From Kribbella albertanoniae (GTDB taxonomy: Bacteria; Actinomycetota; Actinomycetes; Propionibacteriales; Kribbellaceae): 64,000 nucleotides of DNA. Below the pieces are notes generated by a model. It did not search any database, was not told the origin of the DNA, and saw only the letters and a list, made by a program, of their open reading frames with translations. A program made the translations under genes and the position numbers. Below, one piece after another: positions 1-61,440 of the stretch. The stretch is taken from NCBI RefSeq assembly GCF_004348455.1, contig NZ_SMKA01000002.1, forward strand, positions 62,001-126,000, in the 5' to 3' direction. Position 1 is the stretch's first letter; each line of letters starts with the position of its first letter.

Positions 1-460
1 GCTGATGAACATGGTGCTGTCTTGACCGCCCCGGACAGCCCGGAGGTGCAACCACCTCCGGGCAACCGGCGTGTAACGGTGTTCCAACGTCTTGAGAAGC
101 TCAACAATCACCCGGTCCTCAAGATGATGGTGATGGTAGGCGAGATCGCGGGACTGATTGCGCTGATCGTCGCGGGCATCAAGTGGATCATCCTGCGACC
201 ACGCCGCCGTGGTCGGGTTCCTCGGCGGCCGGCCCGGCCTGGATGTCACGGTCGCCAAGTCCCTCGACCAGGTGCCAGGCGCGCTGGTCGAGGATCTCGA
301 GATCAGAGTCTTCGCCGTCGCGAGCGGCACCCAGGACCCGGCCCGCTGCATCATCGATGCCCGAGGCAACCACCTGCTCACCACCACGGTCCGCAACCCG
401 GGCACGAGGCCGGTGCCGATCCACTCGCCCCAGCCGGGCCTTACGGGCAGAGGCGGGTGA
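1..460 (+). pseudogene. Broken small membrane protein gene, 5' end outside window
   Basis: I do not recognise the family. Frame 1 is open from the left edge and encodes a basic stretch followed by one clear membrane helix (about 130-185: MVGEIAGLIALIVAGIKWII). After about 185 that frame turns into arginine/proline-rich shadow sequence, while frame 2 becomes protein-like and runs to a TGA at 458-460 (GRPGLDVTVAKSLDQVPGAL and on). The simplest reading is one small membrane-anchored protein broken by a frameshift near 185-200. A TTG at 22 could be a start, but the upstream frame stays open. No neighbour gives functional context. Alternatives are two separate small genes or a sequencing error. 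Confidence 0.3.
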
Positions 461-577
461 TGGACTTGATGGGGAACTGCGGTCGGCGGTGGTGATGGGC
501 AGGGACCATTTGCGGGCGACCTGTATCGCCTTCCCCGTCCCAGGCAGACGATCGCCGGCCCCGCTGTTCCGGCTCGC

Positions 578-1423
578 TCAGTGGGCGCTCTTCCATTCTT
601 CGGCCGCTTCGGACATGGTCTTGAAGGGGACTCCGAGCTCCTTGCCGCGTCGGATGAAGTTCTCGACGGTGCGCAGTTTGCTCGCGCGGCCGATCGCGGC
701 GGGGTGCCAGACTCCGGTCAGCGTTCCACCTGGCACCTGGTCGACCAGGAACTCCAGGTCGTCGATCCAGCGTTTGCCGAGTGCAACGACATCGGTGCTG
801 GCGGGGAGCAACAAGCCGGGGGTCATGACGAACTCGAGGAGGACGAAGTCAATGATCGTTCCCAGCGGTACTTCTACCAGGTCGAGCTCGTCGCCGAACT
901 GGACCGGAAGTTCGGGATCGACGACGTCGGCGGTGCGGCAGCGGTACATGCCGTAGTCGCTGCCCCACAAACTGCTGTCGTACCGGAAGCCGTACTCGAC
1001 CAGCAACGAGGTCGTATTGGGCGAAAGATCGGCTGCCGGCGACCGATAGCCGGTCGGGGTGACACCGAGGACCTGATCGAGCGCCTCGAGACCGCGCTCG
1101 ATCATCCGACGCTCGGCCGGTTCGTCGAGATTCGTCGGGACCTCGTGCGCGTAACCATGATGGCCGATCTCGTGGCCCGAGTCGCGGATTCGCTTGCAGA
1201 CGTCCGGGTAGGCCTCAGCGTCCATGCCTGGAATGAACCAGGTGGACTTGACCTCTTCGCGGTCGAGCAGATCCAGAATCCGCGGTGCTGCGACGGTGGC
1301 GGCGAACTCGCCTCGCGAGATGTAGGTCGGCGAGGACAGACCGAGCATGCCCACCCAGAACGAGATGGCGTCCAGGTCGAAGCTGAGACAAACGGACGCG
1401 CCGCTACTTTGTGAGTCGGACAT
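578..1423 (-). CDS. Polysaccharide deacetylase (NodB-homology) family protein
   Basis: A 281-aa protein of the carbohydrate esterase 4 fold. The metal-binding SFDLDA motif (residues 14-19, Asp16 and Asp18) and the HEIGHHGYAH motif (84-93, His89 and His93) are intact, and YRSPA follows near residue 130. Such enzymes hydrolyse C-N bonds of acetylated sugars, allantoin or related amides; no signal peptide is seen, so a cytoplasmic substrate is likely. The start at 1423 is chosen because GGGAG lies just upstream and because the longer frame to 1564 adds low-quality sequence. It is divergent from the acetyltransferase gene. The substrate cannot be deduced. Confidence 0.85.
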   Translation of the reverse strand: MSDSQSSGASVCLSFDLDAISFWVGMLGLSSPTYISRGEFAATVAAPRILDLLDREEVKSTWFIPGMDAEAYPDVCKRIRDSGHEIGHHGYAHEVPTNLDEPAERRMIERGLEALDQVLGVTPTGYRSPAADLSPNTTSLLVEYGFRYDSSLWGSDYGMYRCRTADVVDPELPVQFGDELDLVEVPLGTIIDFVLLEFVMTPGLLLPASTDVVALGKRWIDDLEFLVDQVPGGTLTGVWHPAAIGRASKLRTVENFIRRGKELGVPFKTMSEAAEEWKSAH

Positions 1424-1558
1424 TTCTGGCTCCCACTTCTGTTGATGCAAACGACATCGGGTCTGCGCCGGTCGACGCAGGCTAGGAGTCGTGCGCTGGC
1501 AGTGGATAGGAATCGAATTCCTCCCCTCCCTGCAGCTGCGGCTGATATTCAAGGAAGC

Positions 1559-2344
1559 ATGCACACGGCGAGACGCATTGCAGGGCTCGCGGCGCAGCTC
1601 GCGGCGAATCGGGCCTTCTTGCTCTCGTGGGATCGTGGCCAGGCTGCGGACAGCGAGCGCGGCCTGGTCATGTACCGAAGCGAGGTTCAGTATGCCCCGC
1701 TGAACGGCGTACTCCGGATCAATGACTGCGACATCGATCGTGCACTGACCGACGCTCGGCAGAACTTCGCTGGGCTTCCTTGGGTCTGGTGGGTGGGTCC
1801 GGACAGTGCGCCGGAGACGGCCGACGAGCTTCTACGGCGCGGAGCGGCGGAGCTGGAACGGCTTCCGGTCCTGGTGATGGATGCTTCGCTGGCGGCTTCC
1901 GTCCAGGCCCCGGCCGGAATCGCGATCGATCGGGTGCGCGGCCCTGCGGAACTGACAGAGTTCGTGCTCGCTCACAGTTTCGCCGCTTCGCTGCGAGCGC
2001 CGGACGTCCGGCTGATGGTCGCGCACGAAGCCGCGCTGCTGCGCGCGGAAAGAGTCGATCTATTCGCCGCACGGGCCGGCGGTCGCATCGTCGGGACGTC
2101 CATGGCGTGGGTCAGCCATGGCGTCACGGGGATCTACCTGGTCGGAACGCACCCTGACTTCAGAGGTAGCGGGATCGGCACCGCCCTGACTGCCGCGGCC
2201 GTGCGGGCCGGCGAAGCCAGGGGAGGGCAGGTCGCCGCGCTGACCGCCAGTGCGATGGGGGAGCCGGTCTACCGCCGGATGGGCTTTTCCGAAGTAACGC
2301 AGTACCGGCTGCTGTCTGTCCCTACGTGGTCTGAACCCAACTGA
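1559..2344 (+). CDS. GNAT family N-acetyltransferase
   Basis: A 261-aa acetyl-CoA-dependent N-acetyltransferase. The GNAT core is in the C-terminal half, with the acetyl-CoA loop GTHPDFRGSGIGTAL followed by the VYRRMGF strand typical of the family. The N-terminal half (about 130 aa) is variable and probably forms a second, degenerate GNAT-like domain. The ATG at 1559 follows AAGGA; a longer open frame from 1442 lacks coding character. It lies 13 bp upstream of the acylase gene and may be co-transcribed with it. The substrate is unknown. Confidence 0.8.
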   Translation: MHTARRIAGLAAQLAANRAFLLSWDRGQAADSERGLVMYRSEVQYAPLNGVLRINDCDIDRALTDARQNFAGLPWVWWVGPDSAPETADELLRRGAAELERLPVLVMDASLAASVQAPAGIAIDRVRGPAELTEFVLAHSFAASLRAPDVRLMVAHEAALLRAERVDLFAARAGGRIVGTSMAWVSHGVTGIYLVGTHPDFRGSGIGTALTAAAVRAGEARGGQVAALTASAMGEPVYRRMGFSEVTQYRLLSVPTWSEPN

Positions 2345-2357
2345 AACGAGACGTGGA

Positions 2358-4352
2358 GTGAATCCTCAGGTACACCGCGACGCGTATGGCGTACCCCATG
2401 TGCAGGCCGGCGACCCGCTCAGCCTTGTCCGCCTCCAGGGCGCGACCACAGCTCATGACCGTGCCTGGCAGCTCGAGTACGCGAGGCATCAGTTCAACGG
2501 GACGACCGCTGCCTTCCTCGGCCCGGACGCCGTACCGTGGGACACGTTCGCCCGCCAGGCACGGCTCGCCGACACCGCTCGGCAGTGCTTCGAGGCGTTG
2601 GACTCCTCGACGGCCGAGTGGGTGACGGCATATGTCGACGGGGTCAACTCAGCTCTTCCCTCAGCCGAGGCTCCGGAGTTCGTGGAGACGGGGCTGACAC
2701 CGGGCGAGTGGGAGCCGTGGACGCCGCTGGGGATCTGGCTCGTTCTGCACGTCCTGTTCGCGGGCTTCCCTGGGAAACTGTGGCGAACGCATGTCGCGGA
2801 GCGGCTGGGCGAGGAGTACCTCGAGCTCTTCACGGCGGAAGGGCCGACAGCGTCCGGCAGCAACGGTTGGCTGATCCCCGGCTCCTCGACCTCGACCGGG
2901 CAGCCGATCATCGCCGGTGACCCGCACCGCTACGTCGAGCACCCCGGCGTGTACCAGCAGATCCGGCTTACTTGCCCGGAGTACGACGTACTGGGTCTGG
3001 CCGTGCCGGGGGTTCCCGGGCTCGCGCACTTCGCTCACACCGGCAAGGTGGCGTGGGCGATCACCAACTCTGCTGCCGACTACCAGGACCTGTACGCCGA
3101 GCAGCTCCGGCGGACCGGCTCATCCGTCGAAGCGCTCGGTCCGTCCGGCTGGGCGCCCGCCGCATTGCACACCGAGGTCGTCGAGGTGGCCGGAGCGGAC
3201 GCGGTGACGATCGAGGTGATCGAGACCGAGCGTGGCCCGATCATTGTCGACCGTGCTGACCAGACGATCAGCCTGCGCCATCCGCCGCGCGTTCTGCACC
3301 GGCTCGGCTTCGAAGTGATTCCGCGGTTGCTGCAGGCAACGAGCGTCGCTGAGGTCGACGCTGCCCTGGAGGATTGGGTCGAGCCGGTCAACGTCGTGAT
3401 GGCCGCTGACACCGACGGCGGGCTGCTGCATCGGGTCGCCGGTGCAGTCCCGCGCCGGCACCAGGCGAACATGCTCCGCGTCGTCCCGGCCTGGGAGGCT
3501 GCCTACGCGTGGGACGGCTGGCTGCCGATGCCGAGCGAAGAGGTTATCGGGCCGATTTCGATGGGGAACGCCCGCGAGATCGCCGCGCCGCTCGGCGTCG
3601 AGTTCGCGCCACCGCATCGGACCCGGCGCATCCGCGAGCTGCTGCTGCAGCGTTCCGACTGGTCGGTCGACCAGATGCCGGCCATCCACACCGACACCTA
3701 CCTCGGCTCGGTCGGCAGCATTCTCGACCTCCTCCCCGGCCTACTCGGCCTGAGCGCCGAACCCGTTGCCCTCCGCAACGAGCTGTTGGCCTGGGATCGG
3801 CGGATGGACGCCACCAGTACCACCGCCTCGACGTACGTCGCCCTCCGCAAAGCCGTCATCGTCCGCTTGGCTGACCACTTCAACACTCTGGAGAAGCCCG
3901 ACTGGCCGGAACTCTTCGCGCCGCTCCTGGACGTCCACACCCGCACCACTTACGCCTTGGAGAACCTCCTCGCCTCCACCGTTCTCGATGTCCTACCGAT
4001 CGTCAGGGCCGGGCTGGAAGAAGTAGCCGCCGCCAAGCCGCGCTCACCCTGGGGCGAAACCCACCAGCTCACCCCGCTCCACCCGCTGCGTACGCCCCTC
4101 TTCACCCAGACCGAAGACCCGATCGACTTGGCCCTCAGCGGCGACCGCGACTGCGTATGGTCCACCACGAGCATCCCCGGCTGCACCGATCTCTGTCTCC
4201 AGGCCTCCGCCGCACGCTACGCCTGGGACCTCGCGGACCGCGACGCCAGCTCGTGGGTCGTCCCACTGGGCGCCTCCGGCATCCAAGGAACGCCCCACCA
4301 CCACGACCAACTCGCACTCTGGCTGGCCGGCAAGCTGATCCCAGTCGTCTAG
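2358..4352 (+). CDS. Penicillin acylase family Ntn hydrolase
   Basis: A 664-aa protein of the penicillin/cephalosporin/homoserine-lactone acylase family. These are made as a precursor that self-cleaves so that a serine becomes the N-terminal nucleophile of the beta chain. The expected SNGW motif is at residues 168-171 (Ser168 predicted nucleophile), after about 167 residues of alpha chain and spacer, and GQPIIAGDPH follows as in family members. There is no obvious signal peptide, so it may be cytoplasmic. It starts with GTG, 13 bp after the acetyltransferase. It lies outside the SARP-box region, so I do not assign it to the cluster, although an amide-cleaving role cannot be excluded. Confidence 0.85.
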   Translation: MNPQVHRDAYGVPHVQAGDPLSLVRLQGATTAHDRAWQLEYARHQFNGTTAAFLGPDAVPWDTFARQARLADTARQCFEALDSSTAEWVTAYVDGVNSALPSAEAPEFVETGLTPGEWEPWTPLGIWLVLHVLFAGFPGKLWRTHVAERLGEEYLELFTAEGPTASGSNGWLIPGSSTSTGQPIIAGDPHRYVEHPGVYQQIRLTCPEYDVLGLAVPGVPGLAHFAHTGKVAWAITNSAADYQDLYAEQLRRTGSSVEALGPSGWAPAALHTEVVEVAGADAVTIEVIETERGPIIVDRADQTISLRHPPRVLHRLGFEVIPRLLQATSVAEVDAALEDWVEPVNVVMAADTDGGLLHRVAGAVPRRHQANMLRVVPAWEAAYAWDGWLPMPSEEVIGPISMGNAREIAAPLGVEFAPPHRTRRIRELLLQRSDWSVDQMPAIHTDTYLGSVGSILDLLPGLLGLSAEPVALRNELLAWDRRMDATSTTASTYVALRKAVIVRLADHFNTLEKPDWPELFAPLLDVHTRTTYALENLLASTVLDVLPIVRAGLEEVAAAKPRSPWGETHQLTPLHPLRTPLFTQTEDPIDLALSGDRDCVWSTTSIPGCTDLCLQASAARYAWDLADRDASSWVVPLGASGIQGTPHHHDQLALWLAGKLIPVV

Positions 4353-4375
4353 CCCGCTTCGTGGCTTCTTGGTCT

Positions 4376-49822: not shown

Positions 49823-51637
49823 CTATCCGGCGTTGCGGCGGATGTCGTCGTCCGCTTCCGCAGCCAGGCAGATGCGGGCGTAGGCATGCAGGATCGGCGG
49901 CAGTTCATAGGTGAGTACGCCGTCGACGGAATGGCGTGAGCGCAGCAGGCCGTTGTGCACGAGTCGTTCCAGCAGCCGGTCGGCGACCTGAGTCGGCTGC
50001 AGCATCGCGTCGGCGACTGCCGCGGGGACGATCCGCTCCGGGGGCAGAAAGGCCAGTGCTCCGAAGCATCGGCGGGTCAACGGGTCCATCCGCTCGAATC
50101 CGGAGTCGAGCAGCCGCCGGATCGACATTTCACCGACACTCAACTCATCGAGAACGCGGTCGGTGTCCTTCAGGCGATCCGCTAGGAACCGCATGGTGTG
50201 CGCTGGTCTGGCGGACAGCCGAGCGCCGGCAACCCGAATCGCTGCTGGAAGCATGGCGCAGCGCACGACGATGTCGCGTGCGGCGGCGCGTTCCGCATCG
50301 ATGCGATCGTCACCGATCAGCTGCGCGAGCATCTGTAGTGACTCGTCCTCATTGAGTGGTCTCAGATCGAGGCGGAGATCCGCGTTGATCCCGGCGAGCC
50401 AATCGCGGCTGGTGATCAGCACGCAGCTAGGCCCAGCACCCGGTAGCAGATCGGCAACCTGTGGACTGCTGGCCGCGTCATCCAGGATGATCAGAGCTCT
50501 TCGCTCAGCCAGAACCGACCGATAGAGCGCTCGTCGCCTGTCTGCACTCTGTGGGATCGCCTCGGGAGTGATGCCGAATGCTTGCAGGATCTCGCCTATC
50601 GCATCTCCCGGTCTCTTGGGAGTCTTGGTTGAGCCGGCGAGATCAATATGGATCTCGCCGTCCTCGTACACATCGCGTGTCGCCATGGCCGCGCTGGTAG
50701 CGGTCGCCGTCTTCCCGATGCCAGGCGGGCCGGACAACACTGCGATCGGGACTCGACCGCTCGGGCGTTCGGCGCTGATTAGCGCGGTTAATTGCTCCAG
50801 TTCGGAGGAGCGCCCGGCAATGGCTGGACCAACTGGCAGCAACTGATGTGGTGTGACCGGTGCGCCCGCCTCGAGGCCGGGGCGTGGAATTCGCAGGCTG
50901 CCGTCGAGGATGCCGGCCTGTGCACTGCGCAGTGCGAGACCTGGCTGGACACCCAGCTCATTCTGCACCGTGTGCAGCGCTCGCTGATAGGCCGCGAGTG
51001 CGTCACCTGTCCGCCCCACAGCGTGCAGGACGGTGATCAACGAGTACCACAGTGACTCGTCGAGCGGCCGGTCACCGACCAGTTCTTCGAGCAGGGGCAG
51101 GAGCTCTGCTCGTTCACCGAGCGCCAGACGGGCGTCGATCCAGTCCCGTTGGACCTGCCATCGTTCTTCTTCGAGTGCTGACACCCGGGCTCGCATCCCG
51201 GCACCGAGTTCGATCTCCGGCAGCGGCATGCTCCGCCACATCTGTAGCGCCTCGCCGAGTAGCGATCGGGCATCGTTGTAAGAGCTCGACCGCAGTGCCT
51301 GCCGCCCGGCGTCGGCGAGGGTGGAGAAGCGGAGGAGATCAAGCTCCTCGTGGTCGGCTAATAGCCGATAGCCTGCCGGATGCCCCCGCAATCGGTGCTG
51401 TGCGCCCGAACTGGTCAGGATGGCTCGCAGCTGGGAAACATAGGTCCGCACGTTTTCGACGGCTGACCGTGGTGGTTTTCCCGGCCATATCCCGTCGATG
51501 ATCTGATCGAGTGGTACGACCTGATTGGTCCGGAGGAGGAGAATAGCCAGAAGCGCGCGTAGTCGCCGCGCTTTGATGGGTAGTGGTCGGCCCTGGGAGT
51601 CCATTACTTCCAACGGCCCGAGAATATAATAACGCAT
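49823..51637 (-). CDS. SARP-family pathway activator with NB-ARC domain
   Basis: A 604-aa AfsR/DnrI/RedD-type regulator. Residues 1-95 are the winged-helix DNA-binding domain (YILGPLEVMDSQGRPLPIKA, SAVENVRTYVSQLRAIL), about 96-240 the bacterial transcriptional activation domain, and about 265-480 an NB-ARC ATPase with P-loop GPPGIGKT (303-310). There is no TPR tail, so it is a medium-size SARP. GGGGG precedes the ATG at 51637. SARPs bind direct repeats spaced 11 bp just upstream of -10; thirteen such boxes occur across 6.6-48.5 kb, so this protein is very likely the activator of the cluster. Its own promoter has no such box. Confidence 0.9.
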   Translation of the reverse strand: MRYYILGPLEVMDSQGRPLPIKARRLRALLAILLLRTNQVVPLDQIIDGIWPGKPPRSAVENVRTYVSQLRAILTSSGAQHRLRGHPAGYRLLADHEELDLLRFSTLADAGRQALRSSSYNDARSLLGEALQMWRSMPLPEIELGAGMRARVSALEEERWQVQRDWIDARLALGERAELLPLLEELVGDRPLDESLWYSLITVLHAVGRTGDALAAYQRALHTVQNELGVQPGLALRSAQAGILDGSLRIPRPGLEAGAPVTPHQLLPVGPAIAGRSSELEQLTALISAERPSGRVPIAVLSGPPGIGKTATATSAAMATRDVYEDGEIHIDLAGSTKTPKRPGDAIGEILQAFGITPEAIPQSADRRRALYRSVLAERRALIILDDAASSPQVADLLPGAGPSCVLITSRDWLAGINADLRLDLRPLNEDESLQMLAQLIGDDRIDAERAAARDIVVRCAMLPAAIRVAGARLSARPAHTMRFLADRLKDTDRVLDELSVGEMSIRRLLDSGFERMDPLTRRCFGALAFLPPERIVPAAVADAMLQPTQVADRLLERLVHNGLLRSRHSVDGVLTYELPPILHAYARICLAAEADDDIRRNAG

Positions 51638-52457
51638 CGCATCGACCCCCGATTGACGAGTTTCGGTGGGTCCCACCCGGAGGGCGTCTCCCGTGTGAGG
51701 TGGGCGCTCTGTCACTGGAGTTCACCAGTCAGCCTGAAGTGGGCTACGCCGGATAGTCAACGGTTTTGCATGAACCTGCAAAAAGTCTGTGTTGGCTCGA
51801 GTCGAGCGAAGAAATCGGTGAGAATCTCAACAGTACTTGCCATCCGCCCTCGGCATGCACCTCGTGCCCGTGGGTGCGTTCGAACGCGCGCGCACGACGA
51901 TCGGGTACATGGCGGCGACAGGTAGGCTAGTTTGCAGTCTCGCTTGACATCTCTGTGGGTATGCCGAGGTTCTCATTCTTGCGGAGCGCAATTCGTCCTC
52001 TCAAGCTGATTTTGGAATCATCCTTGCTGCTGTCCGGCCCATCGCACCTGGCCGAAATGCGGATACGGCAGACCACAGTCAACCGCGTCGCCTTCCCCTA
52101 AGGAGCGCGGCCCATCTGCTCATGCCTTGATCGCGATTTCGCTACCGTACGCATCGTGAGTCGTGAGTCTCGAATTGCGGATCGCTCGCGACCGATGCCT
52201 CGGAGGAGCCTGGGAGCCGGTAAGCCTGAGATCCGGAGGTGGCGAGCCTCCAGTGTCGGGCGAGATCGGATCAAGACGACGCTGGCAAGAGCAAGCAACG
52301 GCCAACCATCTTGGGGCGAACGAGTCTTCCTAGAGGCGGAACCTCACCAGCTTGCATCAAGCACTCGGAGTCCCCATGGTGCGGCGACGACTGTGAGAGT
52401 CGGCGAGGTCGGACGTATCCGCTGATACGTCGTGGCGAGGAACAGACTGGGCTAGAG
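51638..52457. other. Gene-poor interval at right edge of cluster
   Basis: About 820 bp without a convincing gene on either strand. It holds the upstream region of the SARP gene, one inverted repeat (listed separately), and AT-richer sequence than the cluster. From about 51.9 kb rightward the base composition is visibly less GC-rich, marking the change to mobile-element DNA. Confidence 0.4.
51764..51783. promoter_or_regulatory. Inverted repeat TTTTGCA-N6-TGCAAAA upstream of SARP gene
   Basis: A perfect 7-bp inverted repeat with a 6-bp spacer lies about 130 bp before the SARP start. It could be an operator for a dimeric repressor (TetR/GntR type) controlling the activator. No dedicated repressor gene is adjacent. 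Confidence 0.35.
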
Positions 52458-53189
52458 CTACGGACAGTCTCCTGTAGTGATGGCGCTGTGTGACTGCGTT
52501 TCCGTCGGTTCGCGCCCAAAGGGCGATGTGCTGTTGATCCCATAGCGCTCGCGATAGGCGACGACTTCGCGGAGCCGTACTTCTCGCGTCGAGTTGGGTT
52601 GGCCGGCTACCACGCTCGCGAACGCGTCGTACCAGAGCGGCCTTCCTAGCTTCGCCGTGGTGGCTAGCCAGTCGATGCGCTGGACAATTTCGGCCTCGAG
52701 TTCGAGCAAACGCAAGTGCATGGACGGATGCTCGGTGGGGCCTGCGGCAACCACCAGACCGGCTAGGCGTGTAGGGCCTTCGCCCGATCTGCGGGCCTTC
52801 CTGCTGATGAGCCGTTCAACCCGAGTATGGAGGACCGCAGCGAGGTCGTTCGCGCTGTCGAGATCTGAGTGCTCGACTGCCTCTCTGAGGACATCTGCCA
52901 TTTCGAGCCCGGCGTTCTCTGCGCGTCGGAGTTCGGCTACGAGGGCTCCGTAGGCGGGAGAGGCGCGCAGCGCTGCTTGGCTGCTCGAGTCAAGACTGCT
53001 AACGGTGATGGCTCTGGCCAGGCGGGCACGCGCGTCTAGCTGGCAGAGGTGTTCGTGGATGGGGATTAGGCGGTCTAGGCGGGTGGCGTTGTCTAGTTCT
53101 TGGCGCATGACTTCGTGGGCTGAGAGCTCTACGCGGGGGTTGTTGAGGACTGCTTCTAGGACGTCTTGGACGGGTCTGCTCGAAGTGGG
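52458..53189 (-). pseudogene. MobF/TraA relaxase, C-terminal fragment
   Basis: About 240 residues typical of the C-terminus of actinobacterial MobF relaxases: VLEAVLNNPRVELSAHEV, ARLARAITVSSLDSSSQAAL, SDLDSANDLAAVLHTRVERL and the final VVAYRERYGI. The nicking and helicase domains are absent. Upstream the frame joins, without a start codon, to the integrase fragment near 53190-53223. This is the scar of a deletion inside an integrative conjugative element. The fragment is not expected to be functional. Confidence 0.65.
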
Positions 53190-53223
53190 GTTCGTGGAGG
53201 TCTGGGGTGGGTTGTGGGTGGCT

Positions 53224-53643
53224 GGTGATGACCTTGTCGAGGCGCTGGGTGGTGGCCTCGCCGATGCGGAGTTCGGCGATCGCGGGGCGGATGTGGAGGC
53301 GCGTCACGCGCTCGTAGGTGTCGTAGGAAGTTGGGGAGCGCTTGCCGAGGTCGACAAGCTTCTTGAACTTCTCGCTCCACAGGTCGAGGAGGTCGCCGAC
53401 CTTGTGCATCGCGGTCAGCTCGGTCGAGTGGCCGGTTCTGGTGCGGTCCTGGAGCTTCTTCAGGAGTGAGCGCTCGGCGGCGGCCTTGGTGGGGCCGTAG
53501 GCGCTGACGGGACGGACGTGCCCGTCGAGGTCACGGAACTTCGCCTGCGCTTTGTGCTGGACGGCCTTGCCCTTGGCGTCGGTCTTGGTCGGCCAGGTCG
53601 AGATGGTTCCCCAGGAACCGAGTGGGATGGTCGGTCGTGCCAT
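53224..53643 (-). pseudogene. Tyrosine integrase, N-terminal fragment
   Basis: The first about 140 residues of a phage/ICE-type tyrosine recombinase: an arm-binding AP2-like region (GSWGTISTWP, AKFRDLDGHVRPVSAYGPTK, AAAERSLLKKLQDR) and the start of the SAM-like core-binding domain (TYERVTRLHIRPAIAELRIG). After KVIT at 53224 the frame becomes proline/arginine-rich shadow, and the catalytic domain is missing. It lies 230 bp from a tRNA-Lys att copy, as expected for the recombinase that inserted the element. Confidence 0.7.
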
Positions 53644-53831
53644 GTCATGCCTCCAACCGGGTGATGGTTGGGGTGCTCAACGGTCTCGGAGGTCGAGAAT
53701 CTGGAACGTGGGGAACGACGAGCATCGCTGTGACATGACGCACAGTCACGATCAGGTCAAGGCGGGCAGGTGGCCCGGGGTCGACGCCGCCGGATCAATT
53801 GAGTGCGTTTTGAGTGCGTGGAGGACACACG

Positions 53832-53866
53832 AAGGCCCGGTGCACATTGCGATGTGTGCCCGGGCC
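53832..53866. terminator. Hairpin next to tRNA-Lys copy
   Basis: AGGCCCGGTGCACAT and ATGTGTGCCCGGGCCT pair with a short loop and one bulge. It stands just downstream (minus-strand sense) of the tRNA-Lys 3' copy, where a tRNA gene terminator would be, so it probably travelled with it. Confidence 0.6.
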
Positions 53867-53875
53867 TCGGTGTTT

Positions 53876-53913
53876 GTGCGCCGCCAGGGACTCGAACCCC
53901 GAACCCGCTGATT
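53876..53913 (-). repeat. tRNA-Lys 3'-end copy (attachment site remnant)
   Basis: On the minus strand the sequence AATCAGCGGGTTCGGGGTTC, continuing to GGCGGCGCAC, reproduces the anticodon-stem 3' side, variable loop, T arm and acceptor 3' side of actinobacterial tRNA-Lys. Identity stops at the anticodon loop (TGTAAAT instead of the Lys anticodon), so it is not a complete tRNA gene. Next to an integrase fragment this is best read as an attL/attR core. It could be mistaken for tRNA-Tyr because TGTAAATC resembles a GTA anticodon loop. Confidence 0.7.
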
Positions 53914-54120
53914 TACAGCCGAGACCGATCACGAGTTGCCGCTGATGTGCAGGATCGCTTGCTGGCAAGAGATCCTGCAGCTTTCAGGTACTCGTAGATC
54001 CTCATCGCTGCCCATCCTCTCTCGCTGATTGAGGTGCGTAAAGAGGTGTGTTGCGGAGGTGGGCGGCGCTGCCTACATGGCGATCGAGCCGCCGGCTACC
54101 GGAACACGGTCGGTCCCGCA

Positions 54121-55965
54121 CTAGCTTGATGGCGGGAAGAACCCGTAGCGGTCTCTCGACCGGTTCTTGGTGAAGGTGATTTCGACCGCGCCCGGACCCA
54201 GTCCGTTGGGTGGCTCGATGTTCTCGAGGACGATGACTTGACCGTCGACTCCGTTCTGAATGTCGTCGTAGAACCGGTCGATGACGCTTCTCGGAAGCGT
54301 GCCGTCGGCATCGCCGCCTTGGTCTGGCGGCCGATAGGTGACCAGCGGTGAATCGAGCACGACGAATCCTGGATGCGGGAGGTCTCGGTCGTAGCAGTAC
54401 TGGGCGAGCGCCAAGGTAAATGCCGCGTGCAAGACAGCTCGAACCCCCTTTCCGTGGGACGCGCGTAACTGGTCCCCGGAGACGATGTCCTGCTCGCTTC
54501 GGTCGTATCGGGTGTCGCCTGCGTCTGGTACGCCCCAAGCGGTTAGCCGTTCGGCGATCGCGGCTGAGAACGCGCCCACGGTGACCAGTTGCATGCCCTC
54601 GGCAGCCGTAGCGGTCTCCCTCACCTCGTCGTCGGCCAACTGTCGACGTAGCCTCTCCAAGCTGTCGATCTGGTCGTAGAGGCTCAGCAGGTGTTCGACC
54701 TCGGCGCGCTTGTTAAGAAGGTCGGCCAAGCCGTCCCGGTCAGGAGCCATCGCGGAGTCGAAGTCTGTGAGTTGAACCCGCGCCGCGTCGATCGCTCGTT
54801 GCATGGCCTCGATCCGCTGAGACAGTGTCCCGTGTTCGGCTGCGAGATCACCCAGCGTCGCCCTGAGGTCAGCCTGAAGGCTCGTCGTCTTGGCTTGCTC
54901 GGCGAGCACCGAGTCTCGGAATGCTGTTGTTCCTTCGAGAAGATCCTCGTTGTAGTGCTGGTGTTCGACCTCAGCGCCGCAGAAGGCACACGGTCCAGAG
55001 CGGAAGTATCCAAGGAGGTTTCCCGCCTCCGAGATCATCTCCAACCGCTGGAGATCGGAGCTGTACTGGTCGTCCAGCAATTGGAAGCGTGCGGTGAGCG
55101 CGGTGATGTCGGTCAGGCGCTCCAACTCTTCCAATCGCAGACGTTCCGTCGCAGCAATCCGCCGACTCAGCTGATCCCGCTCGGCCGAGATACTGCTGAT
55201 TGAGTCGGTGAATATGCTGGCGGATGACGAGAGCCGGTCGCGTTGGGCTCTCAGCTCGGTGGGGCTGGGAACGTCCTCGAGTTGGGCTTCGAGATCGGCG
55301 ACCAGTTTGTTTACGACCGTTTCCTGGGCCGCGGACGTCTGACGCCGTTCCTTGTCGGTGGGAACCGCCACAAGATTGGAGTCGTCCTGGCCCTCCAGGA
55401 GCAGTTTCAAGACCGAGATGTCGACCGTTTTGCTGGTTGTCACGGCAGTGAGAACTGGGGACCGGGTGGCCTGCATGCTGGTCTCGTCGATCACGCAGAA
55501 GTGGGCGATGTTGCGGAAGCTGAGTTCGTTGGTTTGGTTGTATACGTTCCTGCGGACGCGCTGACCGGAGAGGTCCAGCGCAGCGAGTAGATACGCGGAC
55601 AGACTTCCACGCTTGCCGGTGACGTGTTTCTCCCCGAGCACGAGTCCTGCAGGTTCGGCGGGCGGAGTTCGCACGTCGCCTTCGTACACAGAGAAACGGC
55701 CGCCGTTGACCGGGCGCACCAGTGTGACGTGGGCTTCGCCGGGCAGTGTCAGGCCTAGAAGGACGGAGCTGTAGCCTGCGCGTTCAGGGATGTCGTCGAG
55801 AGGTGTCGACCCGCCCAGCATGAAGTCTATTGCGTCGGCGATGAATGACTTCCCCGTGTCTGAGGGACCCCGGACTACGGTGACCGCAGGGCCGAACTCC
55901 ACGCTCGCGGGTGGCACATCGGCGCCAGTAAAGGTGAGGTGGGTCAGAGTGATGCGTCCAGTCAT
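54121..55965 (-). CDS. ABC three-component system ATPase (SMC/Rad50-like)
   Basis: A 614-aa SMC-like ATPase. Walker A is RGPSDTGKS (33-40), followed by FIADAIDFMLGG. Long coiled-coil arms flank a CxxC hook (GPCAFCGAEVEHQHY), and the Walker B/D-loop is VVLDSPLVTY near residue 540. This matches the ATPase of ABC-3C conflict systems, in which the ATPase, a small middle component and a variable effector are encoded together. The ATG at 55965 overlaps the middle-component stop (ATGA). It probably senses invading DNA or its replication. It is the last gene of the operon. Confidence 0.82.
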   Translation of the reverse strand: MTGRITLTHLTFTGADVPPASVEFGPAVTVVRGPSDTGKSFIADAIDFMLGGSTPLDDIPERAGYSSVLLGLTLPGEAHVTLVRPVNGGRFSVYEGDVRTPPAEPAGLVLGEKHVTGKRGSLSAYLLAALDLSGQRVRRNVYNQTNELSFRNIAHFCVIDETSMQATRSPVLTAVTTSKTVDISVLKLLLEGQDDSNLVAVPTDKERRQTSAAQETVVNKLVADLEAQLEDVPSPTELRAQRDRLSSSASIFTDSISSISAERDQLSRRIAATERLRLEELERLTDITALTARFQLLDDQYSSDLQRLEMISEAGNLLGYFRSGPCAFCGAEVEHQHYNEDLLEGTTAFRDSVLAEQAKTTSLQADLRATLGDLAAEHGTLSQRIEAMQRAIDAARVQLTDFDSAMAPDRDGLADLLNKRAEVEHLLSLYDQIDSLERLRRQLADDEVRETATAAEGMQLVTVGAFSAAIAERLTAWGVPDAGDTRYDRSEQDIVSGDQLRASHGKGVRAVLHAAFTLALAQYCYDRDLPHPGFVVLDSPLVTYRPPDQGGDADGTLPRSVIDRFYDDIQNGVDGQVIVLENIEPPNGLGPGAVEITFTKNRSRDRYGFFPPSS

Positions 55966-56447
55966 GTTGCCCATCCCTCGCTGCCTAGGTCGATCTGAGC
56001 GAACTCCTCGGACCAACTCGAGAAGATCGACCGCATCTCGGCTCTGAGGACGTCCTCCGTAAGGTCTGGGAAACGGTCGAGGACCCAGACCACACGTTGG
56101 TTCAGGGTGACGGCGTAGGTCGAAGCCAGCGCACTGACGAAGCTGTAAGCGTCCTCGCTGGCCAGAAATTCGATCCCGGAGCTTCCTGCGCGCATCTCGA
56201 CGAGTGCACGTCGAACCATGACGTGAAGTCCTGCCTCGACCATGGCGCGCCGTGCGCCGAGCTCTCCCGATCGAATCGGCAAGGGAGGGTGCAGACTGCT
56301 CGGTCCTCCGAGATCCGCACTGTGGAGAACTCCATGGTCCAGCAGGACCAGCCGGTTCAGGTCGAGGCGCTCCGGATATGCCGCCGTGAGGATCATCAGC
56401 ACGCGGACACCTACCTCGAGCGAGCTGTTCAGCGGGCTGATAGTCAT
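55962..56447 (-). CDS. ABC three-component system middle component (MC2-like)
   Basis: A 161-aa helical protein with the wording I associate with ABC-3C middle component 2: SLEVGVRVLMILTAAYPERL, NRLVLLDHGVLHSADLGGPS, SLHPPLPIRSGELGARR and GLHVMVRRALVE. It should bridge the ATPase and the effector. Both ends overlap neighbours by ATGA, as is usual for these operons. There is no enzymatic motif. Confidence 0.72.
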   Translation of the reverse strand: MTISPLNSSLEVGVRVLMILTAAYPERLDLNRLVLLDHGVLHSADLGGPSSLHPPLPIRSGELGARRAMVEAGLHVMVRRALVEMRAGSSGIEFLASEDAYSFVSALASTYAVTLNQRVVWVLDRFPDLTEDVLRAEMRSIFSSWSEEFAQIDLGSEGWAT

Positions 56448-57526
56448 TCCTGGATCCAGATGAGACGGTTGGCGTTGGCTAGGTGGTGGCAGATTCCGGT
56501 TCGGTCTTGCAGGTCCGAGACCTGAATCAGCGTGTGCTGCTGAAGGTCGAGTGTCCCGACGTGCACCAAGACCTTCGTCATCCTGGTCCAGCCGTTCGGA
56601 TGGACATCGTCAGCGAGGTCGACGACACCGTGGTAGATGTCATCCTGGAGGCGGCTGAAGGTATCCGGGTGCACCGAGTCCCGTGCATACACACGGAGCG
56701 CTTCGGCCTTGAAGAACGCCTCTCGTTGGCGCTTGAAATGGGGACCCGCGTTCACGTGCTCGGTCACGTTGCTGGCGTCGATCGGCTTGTCCGAGAAGCG
56801 TTCGTTGTAGACCCCGAGCAGTTGCGCGACGTACCGAGCTTCCGCCGCAGTTACCTCGTTGGGTGGCGGCTCGTGATCAGGTCTAGCCGGCATCACGGGC
56901 TCGAAATTGCGCAGGTAGTACGGCGTCCCCTCAAGCTGTGCAATGGCGTCGACGAGCTCGACGGATTTGAACATCGTGAAGTCTGCCGAGGTTGCCGATG
57001 CGATGACCGTGGCGATTTCCGTCGCGTCCACGTCACTGCCGAGTGCTTTGTCCGGATCAGCCAGCTCGTCGAGGAAGCGCTGCTTGAGTCTGGTCGGCTG
57101 ACTCAGCAGCTGGTTGAGTTGCGTGCTGCATCCTTTGGGCGCAAGAAACTGATAGGTGTCCGGCAGAGTCCAGAAACCCGCACAGGCTGCACGAAACACC
57201 TTGAGCATCTCCGGGGCGGCGTCACCGAAGCTGAGTGGCTTGACATAGTGCTTGCACTGGAAACAATCCCAGGGGCCTTCGAGGCCCTGCGTCGTCTTGA
57301 GTGCGGCAACGTCGGCACCCCGGTCGCCGCTGCCGCCGAATCTCTTGATCTGAGCGTATGCCTCAGCGAGCGTGGATACCCACTCGCGGACGAACTCTTC
57401 CCAGTCATCGTCCGTATAGAGATAGATGCGGCCTTGTGGGCTGACGGGAGGAGGGGCGATCTTGCTGCCTGACAGGGCAGGCGTCTTCGGCTTCGGCATG
57501 TCGTGGAGTACCGGTGGACTCAGCAT
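56444..57526 (-). CDS. ABC three-component system effector with PD-(D/E)xK-like nuclease domain
   Basis: A protein of about 360 aa. The N-terminal third has a restriction-endonuclease-like pattern: FGGSGDRGADVAAL followed after about 15 residues by WDCFQCKHYVKP, giving Asp...Gln-x-Lys of Mrr-like nucleases. The rest is a helical C-terminal domain with NVTEHVNAGPHFKRQREAFF, as in ABC-3C effector tails. It likely cleaves DNA when the ATPase complex is triggered. The start is uncertain: TTG 57598, ATG 57526 and ATG 57499 are all in frame, and 57526 is chosen as the first ATG. It heads the three-gene operon. Confidence 0.72.
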   Translation of the reverse strand: MLSPPVLHDMPKPKTPALSGSKIAPPPVSPQGRIYLYTDDDWEEFVREWVSTLAEAYAQIKRFGGSGDRGADVAALKTTQGLEGPWDCFQCKHYVKPLSFGDAAPEMLKVFRAACAGFWTLPDTYQFLAPKGCSTQLNQLLSQPTRLKQRFLDELADPDKALGSDVDATEIATVIASATSADFTMFKSVELVDAIAQLEGTPYYLRNFEPVMPARPDHEPPPNEVTAAEARYVAQLLGVYNERFSDKPIDASNVTEHVNAGPHFKRQREAFFKAEALRVYARDSVHPDTFSRLQDDIYHGVVDLADDVHPNGWTRMTKVLVHVGTLDLQQHTLIQVSDLQDRTGICHHLANANRLIWIQE

Positions 57527-57598
57527 GGGCGGTCCAGCCTGACCGGCTGTAGTCAGTTCCCCCACCCCCAACGGATCACGCTTACGCAGAGTGCACAA

Positions 57599-58134
57599 CC
57601 CTAGAGTAAATACGGTGGTTTGCGAACTACCTGCGGTCGGACGATTTGAGGGCGACGCCGTACCGTCGTTCGTGCGGTCGGCTGTGGGCGAGATGTCGGA
57701 CAGTGCTCGCCTACTAGGCGCGAGGTCTGGGTTCCCTTTCGACCATCGGCTAGGAAGCCGACGATCTCCCGGACTGAGGGATCCGTGTTGGCACTCGTGA
57801 TCGAGTGGATCGCGTGACCGTCCAGTCCGAGGAATCTTGATCAGACTGCTGCAGTTCTGATCAAGGCCTCAGGGCAGAGACCTCTCCTGAAACCACGACA
57901 TGCGCGCGCTCGGTCTTCCGGCCAGCCCATCCTGCGTCATCTGCCTTCGAGGAGCGATACGCACCATAACCACACTCCTAGATCTCGACGTCTGAGGAAG
58001 AGTGGTAGAGGGCTCGGCTCTTTCTCGATCGGAACAGTTTCAGTCGGCCGGCGACTACCGTCGAGCGATCTCGTAACCTGTAGGTCCAAGTGGACTTGAC
58101 GGATGTACGGCATGGGCTGATCCCAGGGGGATGC
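57599..58134. other. Divergent intergenic region between defence operon and protease gene
   Basis: About 535 bp with no supported gene. Short open frames exist but carry no family features. Promoters for the leftward ABC-3C operon and the rightward protease must lie here; I see no sequence close enough to consensus to mark. Confidence 0.35.
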
Positions 58135-58803
58135 ATGGAGTATGGCAGCCGATTGGCGATCCCAGTGGCAGCGGCGAACGGCCGCGGGGACTTCCACATT
58201 GGTACGGGGTTCCTCGGGCGCCGAGTCGATGGCCAAGCTGGTTTGTATACGTCCGCTCACGTCCCGACCAACGCTCAACCTCGCCACACTGCAAACTGGC
58301 GTGGTTGGCCTGAGACCATCCTCGCTTGCCTCTCTCCAACCGAGTCGATTGAGGTGCCACTCTTCCTGGGAACGGGGGGACGTCGTGAACCGGCCTTCGC
58401 CTTCATCGAAGGCGAGGGCCGGCGGCTTGCAGACATGATGGGTTTCGTCGGACCGCAGTTTGCCAGTGTGACGGTTAAATTGATGGAGCGGTACGAGGTC
58501 GCGGACCTTGGAGATGTGGTTGGGAGCAATGGCGGAGGCGGTCTGGAGTTGGTCTGCCATGGCTACCCGGATCTAGGTGGCGGGGCCAAATGGCCTTACG
58601 CACCGCCCAGCGTCGTGAATGGACAGTTCACCGGCATCAATCAATCAGGACCGATGATCGAGGCCGATATGGCGACCGAGAAAGGGTTCTCTGGAGGCCC
58701 GGTGCTCATGGAGGACGGCTCCCTGGCAGGAATGTTGATCGGCGATACCGATGGGAAGGCGAGAATCGTTCCACGCCAGGTACTCGCCCTGCTAGGAGGC
58801 TAG
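58135..58803 (+). CDS. Trypsin-like serine protease domain protein
   Basis: A 222-aa protein with a chymotrypsin-fold signature. The histidine motif is LYTSAHV (His42) after GTGFLG, and the nucleophile motif is EKGFSGGPVLMEDGSLAGM with the expected Ser. The catalytic Asp is not obvious, which may mean a degenerate protease. There is no signal peptide, so it is cytoplasmic. AGGGGG sits 4 bp before the ATG at 58135; an upstream GTG at 58090 has no such site. Similar small proteases accompany bacterial conflict systems, and its place beside the ABC-3C operon suggests a defence role. The target is unknown. Confidence 0.7.
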   Translation: MEYGSRLAIPVAAANGRGDFHIGTGFLGRRVDGQAGLYTSAHVPTNAQPRHTANWRGWPETILACLSPTESIEVPLFLGTGGRREPAFAFIEGEGRRLADMMGFVGPQFASVTVKLMERYEVADLGDVVGSNGGGGLELVCHGYPDLGGGAKWPYAPPSVVNGQFTGINQSGPMIEADMATEKGFSGGPVLMEDGSLAGMLIGDTDGKARIVPRQVLALLGG

Positions 58804-59013
58804 TGGCTCGGCGCGACTCAGACTCCCCGGCTTGGAGCCCGTCGAGCGCAACGCGAAGGCGAACCACCACGATGCTGTGAACAGAGCCACGCCTAGAACG
58901 AAGAGTGGACCGAGCTTCTCACTGTGGCCGTACGCAAGGCTCAGGAGATCGGTGCAGATTCCGAGCTGTCCGATGATGGCAAGCGAGCCCCAGCCGCCTC
59001 GTGCGAGCCGGTT
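58792..59013 (-). pseudogene. Membrane protein C-terminal fragment
   Basis: The minus-strand frame between a TAA at 59014-59016 and a TAG at 58792-58794 encodes about 73 residues with a good hydrophobic helix (LGPLFVLGVALFTASWWFAF) and a plausible tail. It contains no start codon before the helix (first GTG is inside it), so it looks like the 3' end of a truncated gene. It overlaps the protease stop by 12 bp. Family unknown. Confidence 0.35.
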
Positions 59014-59073
59014 TTACGATGCGGTGGCGCCTTGGGCTCGGTGGGCTGTGGTGGCGTAGGCGAGCCCGCGCCG
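59014..59073 (-). pseudogene. Relaxase/helicase motif remnant
   Basis: A 19-residue stretch ending at the TAA reads RGLAYATTAHRAQGATAS. AYATTAHRAQGAT is the wording of the helicase motif near the end of the RecD-like part of MobF relaxases. It is broken on both sides and may derive from the same element as the 52.5 kb relaxase fragment. Short length keeps confidence low. Confidence 0.35.
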
Positions 59074-59170
59074 TACTCGTCTCGGCCGGGATCGCTGCTG
59101 CACTCCTTCCAAGAGAGCTTCAACCTGATCCTTGCGGAAGCCACGGGGTCAGTGATGCCATGGCCCGGGC

Positions 59171-60319
59171 TCAAGGGATGTCGGGTCCGCCTGCCTCTGC
59201 GACTTCGCCGAGTACGCTGATCGCCTCCTGGGCGTCGTGCGCATCGGCGGAGACGGCATCAGGCAACGATCCGGATGCTTCCTCGTCAGCGAGGTGTGGG
59301 TACTTTTCAAGAAGGAACCGCCGCCTGTATGCAACGTCGGCGGCGTCAACGATCGCCTCCAAGGTGGCCCAGTTGAGAGTGCCTCCAACGACGATCCCGA
59401 CTGCGGGTACGACCTTGCCGAGGCCCTGCTTGGTGAGGCGGATGCCGAATGCCTTCGCGAGTTGCGTGGAGACTCTCGCGACGACTGTCTCGTTCAGGAC
59501 ATCCCACGACTTGCCGCGGACGAGTGCTTGGGTGAGCCGCGAGATGTCGGACATTGCGGCGGTCTTGGCGGTGGCTGACGTTGCCGTGCCGGCGTTGACG
59601 ACTGACATCACGAAGAGCTTCTCGGCAGGCGCTTCGGGATCGTAGCCGTAGAGCAGCGAGACGTGGCCCACGGAACGAGACGCAAGGCCGAGAACGAATG
59701 CAGCGTCGCCGGTAAAGGCGCCGGCGATGGCTGCGCCCGAAGGCGCTGCTGCGGCGCCGCCGGAGGCTGCGGCGACAAGCTCGCCCCCGGAGATCACCAT
59801 CCCTGCACCCGCTCCGGAGAGTGCCGCGGCAGCTGGGTAGTACCAGCTTGCTCCACGTCCGCGAACAATGTCGATCTGCTCAAGATCGAGGCGGCGCAGG
59901 TCCAAAAGTGATTCAACGTCGTGCCCGCGCTTCTTGTGCATCGCCACCACCCGTTTGGGCGAGAGTCCAACTCGCGAAATCCGACCCACCGTCCGTCGTG
60001 CAGACTCTAAAGCAGTGCCGCTCCAGTCGGGGAGGGCATCGGCGGCCAGGCGAGCGCCTGTGCCGACTACGTGAACGCCTTTGGCGGCGACGTCCTGCCC
60101 TCGCGAGACGGCCGACTGGGCCCGTGGGTGGCCCTCGAGGTACCTCATAGCACGCTTGCCGAGACTGGCGGCGCCGCTGGCCACTTGCTCGCTGACATTC
60201 CGCGTCCCTCGTGACAGTGGTCGGCCCTTGAAACGTTGGATGTCACGCCATGCCGCTAGTTCGTAGTCCGAGGGAACCGCCATCCCATCAGGGTAGTTGC
60301 ACAGATCGGCCAGCGACAT
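59171..60319 (-). CDS. EcsC family protein
   Basis: A 382-aa protein with the EcsC domain in its C-terminal two thirds: LRRLDLEQIDIVRGRG, alternating glycine/alanine-rich amphipathic helices (AALSGAGAGMVISGGELVAA), GDAAFVLGLASRSVGHVSLLYGYDP and ALVRGKSWDVLNE. EcsC proteins are of unclear molecular role, are linked to secretion and membranes, and recur in defence islands. The N-terminus up to about 110 is a basic helical extension. The ATG at 60319 is used; one at 60283 is also possible. There is no operon partner. Confidence 0.75.
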   Translation of the reverse strand: MSLADLCNYPDGMAVPSDYELAAWRDIQRFKGRPLSRGTRNVSEQVASGAASLGKRAMRYLEGHPRAQSAVSRGQDVAAKGVHVVGTGARLAADALPDWSGTALESARRTVGRISRVGLSPKRVVAMHKKRGHDVESLLDLRRLDLEQIDIVRGRGASWYYPAAAALSGAGAGMVISGGELVAAASGGAAAAPSGAAIAGAFTGDAAFVLGLASRSVGHVSLLYGYDPEAPAEKLFVMSVVNAGTATSATAKTAAMSDISRLTQALVRGKSWDVLNETVVARVSTQLAKAFGIRLTKQGLGKVVPAVGIVVGGTLNWATLEAIVDAADVAYRRRFLLEKYPHLADEEASGSLPDAVSADAHDAQEAISVLGEVAEAGGPDIP

Positions 60320-61440
60320 CGGCCTGGTGTCGCGGCTTCAGTCTTCGGATTGATCCTCACTGCTGTCGCTCGCTATGTCCACAAACATCAGCAGATGATC
60401 TTCTGACGCCGGCGGTCCGAAAGAATCGGGGACAGCGCCTAACTCCGCCTATGCGTTGTTAGTTGCTCCGGGTTCCGCGGTGTCGACGTCCCGTCGATAG
60501 AGCAAGCCGGTGAGCCCGCTCTGACATCCCAGAATGAGGGCATCGGCGGTGACCGCCTTGGTAAGGTCACGATGCTGGTGGCGTTTCCACGGGTTTTGTC
60601 GCGGTCCTCAGCTAGAGACAAAGCCTGCGCGGTAAGGCGTCCGGGGTGTCATCAGATCGCCGCATTTGATGGACACCGAACCTGGCGTTCGATCTGCAGA
60701 GATGGGAAACGACGAATCGCCCGTACGCAACGAGTCCTGTGGGAGTGGCGGATGGGCTTCCGGCTGGAAGATCGGGATCGGTCGGCGGCGTCTGGCGCGG
60801 CCAGGCGCCCGTTCAGACAGGTGGCGCTGCTCGGGCGACCGCTGAACCTGATCCTTCGGCGGATGGCTTCGGTGAGGCAATCGCTAGCGTTGTTCAATCA
60901 GTCGTTCTGTCGGTGGTCGCCGCCAGACTCACCGAATGATCGAGCTGACGTCCGTTGCGGCCGCGGTGACCAACAGCCTCACTGGGACAGCGACTCGTAC
61001 CTCGAAACTTTTTGTTGCCGTCTGGGATGGCTTGGCTTGCGGCTGTCTCGCTTCTGACCGAGCGCCCTCGGGCCAGGTACTGCAGTCAGCCGTGCATATT
61101 GGTGCGGGTTGTTGTGGTCGACTGCTCCGACGCTGGCATGGCTCCACGACAGAAGTGATGCAGCTACAAATTGGGCAGTGCTGCTCAGCCGGTCCGGCAG
61201 CGACGGCGACCGCGGTCTAGGTTGCAGCCCAACTGCCGGTCCGCAGGCGCGACTTCCGCGGCCCTAGGTAGGCGTGCGAGTCGGCTCGGTTCCCTGATCA
61301 TCACATCAGTGTGAATGACAGGACCGACAGGTGTCTCTCCTGATGCGGCGGCAGCGACTCCGGCCATCTAGTTCAAGACGTTGTATCAAGTCGGCATCCC
61401 GCTGCTCTGATACTGCAGCGGCCCAAGTCGGAGGAGCCCT
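60320..61440. other. Long interval without a supported gene
   Basis: About 1.1 kb in which open frames on both strands (the longest on the plus strand, 60572-61057) lack recognisable domains or coherent composition. The stretch may be decayed mobile-element DNA or regulatory sequence. The only clear element is the GGAGGAG ribosome site at 61430-61436 that belongs to the next gene. Confidence 0.4.

Follow-up and report, generated by a model that had tools for sequence, protein, structure and literature searches.

Deletion and tandem accretion were reportedly described for ICESt1-related elements by Pavlovic et al. in 2004. Two elements stacked at a single tRNA gene are also known from Frankia (Fean5518 and Fean5534, at tRNA-Lys) and from Streptomyces avermitilis (Sav3708 and Sav3728); the Frankia pair, with related integrases that target tRNA-Lys, is reported to excise both singly and together, and T4SS-based ICEs with MOBF relaxases occur in Actinobacteria (relevant parts of PMC3218068). 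The word Kribbella is absent from the text of that paper, and a literature search for Kribbella with ICE or genomic-island terms returned no paper that has such a term in title or abstract. Tandem accretion at tRNA genes is already established biology, and the locus described here is a newly documented example of it, traced in detail.

The locus lies in a draft genome of the genus Kribbella (9.73 Mb, 593 contigs), within a stretch of 64,000 nucleotides, bases 62001-126000 of contig C222, that is called the window here and supplies the coordinates unless another contig is named. At its tRNA-Lys locus a newer ICE with phage-defence genes (ICE1) would stand in front of a crippled, older, related ICE (ICE2), and there is good support for reading their meeting point as a junction inside a tandem array of ICEs. 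The comparison set comprised 37 other Kribbella genomes (38 with this one), and matches to the junction were listed at E <= 1e-15.

Table 1. Features on both sides of the junction, in window coordinates.
Feature	Coordinates	Strand	Basis
Start of the block collinear with the sequence directly behind the G003 tRNA-Lys; penicillin-amidase gene first (2358-4352)	1..4355		collinearity
Biosynthetic cluster with its neighbouring genes, on the side of the ICE2 remnant	5342..51637		gene content
Relaxase remnant (ICE2), MobF/TrwC C-terminal region, from about residue 919 of 1207 (C444 homologue)	52458..53230	-	homology
Probable deletion breakpoint, 8-bp overlap CATCACCA (- strand)	53223..53230	-	common to C444 integrase and C444 relaxase; C11 relaxase only partly
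Integrase remnant (ICE2), first 141 or so codons of a tRNA-Lys-family tyrosine recombinase	53223..53643	-	Pfam and homology to C444 integrase
Two direct repeats TTGAGTGCGT, integrase side of core, candidate integrase arm sites	53799..53819		sequence repeats
Terminator-like hairpin downstream of the tRNA copy	53827..53873	-	nearly identical to hairpin behind intact C444 tRNA-Lys
att core, 38-nt copy of the tRNA-Lys(CTT) 3' end, from the anticodon loop on	53876..53913	-	identity to C444 gene
Distal att arm of ICE1, non-tRNA sequence, conserved TTTACGCACCTCAATCAGCG at 54023-54042	53914..54055	-	position and conservation
LmuB, Lamassu, distal ICE1 cargo; longest ORF, later start possible	54121..56016	-	PADLOC, E 2.6e-168
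LmuC, Lamassu	55962..56447	-	PADLOC, E 2.7e-50
LmuA, Lamassu; longest ORF	56444..57598	-	PADLOC, E 3e-97

The core is identical to the last 38 nt of the tRNA-Lys(CTT) gene at C444:72669-72742, with an exact match that runs on to 53871. The original prediction had read a 38-nt tRNA-Lys 3' end with its hairpin at this place; both are real, and the intact tRNA-Lys gene that such an origin calls for elsewhere in the genome is the one on C444, beside an intact integrase. ARAGORN finds no tRNA in the window, so the copy is not a portion of an intact gene. This possibility and the lack of any matching tRNA-Lys elsewhere in the genome had been named as fatal to the prediction, and both are ruled out. 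The bases that precede the core are non-tRNA sequence, and the 5' half of the tRNA is absent. A tRNA-Tyr was also considered, as CTGTAAA before the core resembles a Tyr anticodon, and was discarded on the match to tRNA-Lys(CTT). Searched with up to three mismatches, the 29-mer of the core occurs at two sites in the 9.7-Mb draft, the window and C444, and its reversed control at none. An Rfam scan of 50000-64000 gave no match, and a plasmid search merely three short matches, over the tRNA end, in three records.

The copy is flanked by the distal arm of one element and by the integrase side of another. Arm, core, terminator and repeats, and integrase start follow each other in the order of a complete attachment site, and because distal arm, core and integrase side are all present, the copy is an internal junction and not an outer edge. 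The prediction had taken the whole for the footprint of one element: the decayed element on the integrase side stands, and the copy itself turns out to be a tandem junction with the distal arm of a newer one. The conserved TTTACGCACCTCAATCAGCG lies about 110 to 130 nt upstream of the tRNA copy. TTTACGCACC is found at equal distance before 14 of the 18 distinct non-tRNA core copies in the loci examined, a sample that is not independent, several loci having been chosen for their resemblance to the window; the four copies without it come from G022, G001, G019 and the first G049 site. The distal arm also holds a 15-nt inverted repeat with a 2-nt loop (53948-53979), which could be a terminator for Lamassu or a protein-binding site; the dyad of the relatives is similar but different by eye.

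On the integrase side, the ORF at 52999-53643 (-) is 72% identical to residues 1-142 of the intact C444 integrase and matches Phage_int_SAM_3 in Pfam (E 5e-4), at 20.6 bits slightly below the curated cut-off of 22.6; nucleotide similarity to the C444 gene ends at 53223. The stretch 52458-53230 (-) aligns at 58% identity with residues 919-1153 of a C444 protein of 1207 aa, a TrwC relaxase by Pfam (E 9e-86), and at 59-61% with a second TrwC-type relaxase on contig C11. An integrase broken at about codon 141 thus passes into the final quarter of a relaxase that is read in another frame; no fused protein is therefore expected, and an in-frame chimera gene is ruled out. In every listed relative the integrase matches end by query position 838 and the relaxase matches begin at or beyond 838. 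Among the matches listed at this threshold none of the 37 relatives spans the break, which the window alone does. The C444 and C11 genes are relatives and not parents of the two pieces, so that a microhomology-mediated deletion is the likely, though unproven, origin of the fusion.

The two pieces keep the order and orientation of intact relatives, as in a decayed ICE. No third copy of the tRNA end, at up to three mismatches, was found in the genome that could serve as the remnant's own distal att copy, and ICE2 is for this reason filed as a remnant only. That an integrase N-terminus runs into a MobF relaxase C-terminus had been foreseen with coordinates correct to within a few bases, the break at 53223-53230 falling at the upper end of the expected 53190-53223. 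So had the lost middle: in the three relatives whose assemblies were opened, the order is integrase, relaxase, VirD4.

What, then, is the newer element? On C444 a 476-aa Phage_integrase lies beside the tRNA-Lys(CTT) gene; cargo follows that includes heavy-metal binding proteins, a P-type ATPase and transporters (by eye from the translations), and then the 1207-aa TrwC relaxase and an RHS-repeat protein. The second att copy, the sole other one in the genome, is that of the window, which would bound the same element as the C444 integrase. C444 ends with the tail of VirD4 (from PDIIRT), and C222 carries VirD4 up to GGRTTST, about nine residues apart judging by the nine homologous loci, of 11 tried, whose C-terminus is fully readable. 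The T4SS genes on C222 begin with the rest of VirD4 (TraG-D_C, E 6.6e-23) and continue with TrbL-like, EccE-like and primase genes; the VirD4/TraG-D_C match is clear, and the TrbL and AAA_10 matches stay below curated cut-offs. Pfam identified neither VirB4 nor an excisionase among the ICE1 genes, and together with these sub-threshold matches this makes the element only apparently complete. ICE1 would extend for about 100 kb, from the tRNA on C444 across an assembly gap of nine codons in VirD4 to window position 53914. The proposed pairing of the two contigs rests on the sole second tRNA-end copy, on C222, and the sole intact integrase of the family, on C444; other matches to this integrase in the same genome reach at most 30% identity. 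The RHS-repeat protein (L017:695-7390, on C444) has 2231 aa, and its G003 homologue is 73% identical over residues 5-2101, so the tip differs.

Between the T4SS and the arm, C222 carries PDC-S28, an EcsC/PDC-S29-like gene, LmuA, LmuC and LmuB, the three Lmu genes being adjacent on one strand as PADLOC expects of Lamassu. This position places the defence genes with the newer element, and Lamassu would be cargo of ICE1 and not of the remnant. The suggestion that the decayed element had carried them found no support: LmuB, whose stop codon lies about 66 bp from the ICE1 distal arm, sits with its neighbours on the newer element's side. Of the 37 relatives, one gives a match to LmuB at E <= 1e-60, with 39% identity. 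The PDC-S28 candidate defence protein has 847 aa (E 1.9e-269; 61498-64000 and on, L157:11498-14041), the EcsC/PDC-S29-like protein beside Lamassu is encoded at 59171-60319, and PADLOC gives no match for a neighbour of 1344 aa.

The other side of the junction is that of the remnant. No gene is called in the first 740 bp or so past the relaxase piece; a BTAD regulator follows, and with it a biosynthetic cluster with AMP-binding enzymes, an asparagine synthase, a DegT aminotransferase and others, which ICE2 may have carried, as the prediction had allowed. For 13 kb of this cluster the 37 relatives gave no match at E <= 1e-60, in a first look that scored seven candidates per genome. A second att copy that would mark the far end of the cluster was not found in the genome (29-mer, up to three mismatches), nor was the outer border of the island or the far end of ICE2. 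From position 4355 down, some 50 kb beyond the junction, C222 becomes collinear with about 28 kb of G003 that directly follow its tRNA-Lys gene. This block is a link between C222 and the tRNA-Lys locus that does not depend on the att copy. It lies at no common place in the other relatives and is therefore not called a chromosome border. For the same reason G003 was rejected as an empty-site control; by eye, it also keeps a scrap of the sequence upstream of the integrase. The only downstream sequence common to G002 and G012 stands at about 136-152 kb. The penicillin-amidase gene of the block has an 87% identical counterpart in G003 only, and a partial second copy, 80% identical, lies on contig C365 of the same genome.

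How could such a junction arise? An older ICE2 would have resided at tRNA-Lys. ICE1, whose integrase is related to that of ICE2, would later have inserted by recombination at the tRNA end and displaced the ICE2 att site from the tRNA gene, leaving a junction made of the ICE1 distal arm and the ICE2 core and integrase side. The middle of ICE2 would have been lost by recombination between short similar sequences in its integrase and relaxase genes, which share a strand, and the proposal is that this loss disabled its own excision and transfer. We regard tandem accretion, with ICE1 (C444-C222) ahead of an ICE2 remnant that has lost its middle, as very likely the joint explanation of these features.

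C444 and C222 are only probable neighbours: C11 and C235 also end within the same VirD4 gene, and C444 could pair with C235 instead; the T4SS-Lamassu end on C222 would then belong to the ICE on C11, and the window would hold the att junction of a different ICE1. The ends of C222 and C235 are 82% identical over 8.2 kb, and those of C444 and C11 75-76%. Yet the ICE on C444 requires a distal tRNA-end copy, of which the genome offers no other than that on C222, and the draft contains no second integrase of the family to own that copy (the others being 30% identical or less), which leaves the swapped pairing improbable. C11:63484-67110 with C235 is itself a second relaxase/T4SS element of this genome, broken by the assembly in that VirD4 gene.

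A lone element that entered tRNA-Lys and lost its middle would also leave a single att copy and a truncated integrase, the copy being its own distal or proximal scar and Lamassu either its cargo or chromosomal. Both arms stand around the copy in the order arm, core, integrase, however, with the tRNA 5' half absent and an intact integrase and tRNA located on C444; this reading was discarded on the two arms and keeps next to no credence. Equally little can be given to an assembly artefact, in which 53223 would be a false join between contig ends with no relation to each other. The draft is fragmented, the fusion is seen in none of the 37 relatives searched, and an assembler could be misled by a word of 8 bp that the two sides share; but 8 bp is below usual assembly overlaps, other integrase copies in the relatives are likewise truncated, and every other copy in the genome is 23-27% different from either piece, so there is no repeat to cause a chimera.

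The relatives place the tandem junction in a wider context. Eleven of the 37 relatives hold arm, core and integrase in one stretch (matches with query start <= 20 and end >= 780), with 15 such places among the matches listed: G001, G005, G012, G014, G017 (three), G018 (three), G020, G042, G046, G048 and G049. Stacked elements of this tRNA-Lys ICE family are thus common in the genus. The junction search fetched 30 loci, 23 of which match the integrase; in seven the match is unbroken across 456 columns or more, and in the other 16, among them the window's own, it is interrupted or incomplete, a class that could partly consist of diverged C-termini. Three relatives (G018, G046 and G049) were opened, chosen from 14 with a VirD4 match. 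In each of them integrase and then relaxase share a strand and are followed by VirD4 on the opposite one, as proposed for C444-C222. The tRNA-Lys gene lies beside the integrase in G018 and G046, and the first integrase of G049 lies beside another att copy. From the tRNA to the next junction is about 275 kb in G018 and 200 kb in G046, so these arrays are longer than one ICE; such distances, and a G049 integrase that is not at a tRNA gene, count against tandem accretion as the explanation.

The integrase itself carries an XRE-type helix-turn-helix (HTH_31, residues 333-392 on C444; Pfam, E 5e-13) within the catalytic domain, where it stands after the first arginine motif and before the HxxR motif. 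HTH_31 is present in six of nine aligned family members and absent from three of Amycolatopsis. In 12 scanned loci a tRNA-Lys was found in six (all with Kribbella-type integrases), a tRNA-Leu in the three Amycolatopsis loci and no tRNA in three. Integrases with the insertion are L002:494-1921 (-) (G000:C444) and L141-L146; those lacking it are Amycolatopsis L149-L151, by tRNA-Leu. An AlphaFold model from nine sequences is too weak for domain placement (pTM 0.43, mean pLDDT 72.8), with pLDDT 75-88 over the inserted stretch 331-400 in this weak model, whose top Foldseek match is the Tn1549 integrase. The insertion is evident from the alignments; a regulatory role for it is a guess. Could the tRNA-Lys integrase read and repress its own att region, one protein deciding both integration and quiescence? 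Stacking and truncation of the integrase would then lock islands, together with their defence systems and biosynthetic clusters, in place. This is a speculative idea that we hold to be possible but rather doubtful.

Kribbella is a genus with many natural-product genes, and the locus offers a base-level record of how an island there grows at a tRNA gene: a newer defence ICE in front of a disabled one, beside a cluster without a match (E <= 1e-60, limited first look, 37 relatives). It also corrects the ownership of Lamassu, and shows that a junction inside an array may be taken for its outer border when no more than a window is in view. The integrase with its embedded DNA-binding domain is what might interest a specialist.

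Like the Frankia and S. avermitilis pairs, the Kribbella locus has two tyrosine-integrase elements stacked at one tRNA gene. Those pairs, in the relevant parts of PMC3218068, are AICEs (att-tra-rep-int-att), whereas the Kribbella elements are of the relaxase/T4SS kind; one of them has decayed to a fused fragment, and the array bears a large load of defence and biosynthetic genes, unlike the AICEs. With the T4SS-based MOBF ICEs, as far as that source describes them, Kribbella shares a TrwC-type relaxase, a coupling protein, T4SS genes and a tyrosine integrase, but its integrase differs in the embedded XRE-type helix-turn-helix.

As in the ICESt1-related elements, the island would have grown by site-specific accretion beside an element that lacks recombination and transfer genes. 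Host and target are other ones, and the Kribbella remnant, for which no second att copy was found, differs in keeping the ends of both its integrase and its relaxase genes.
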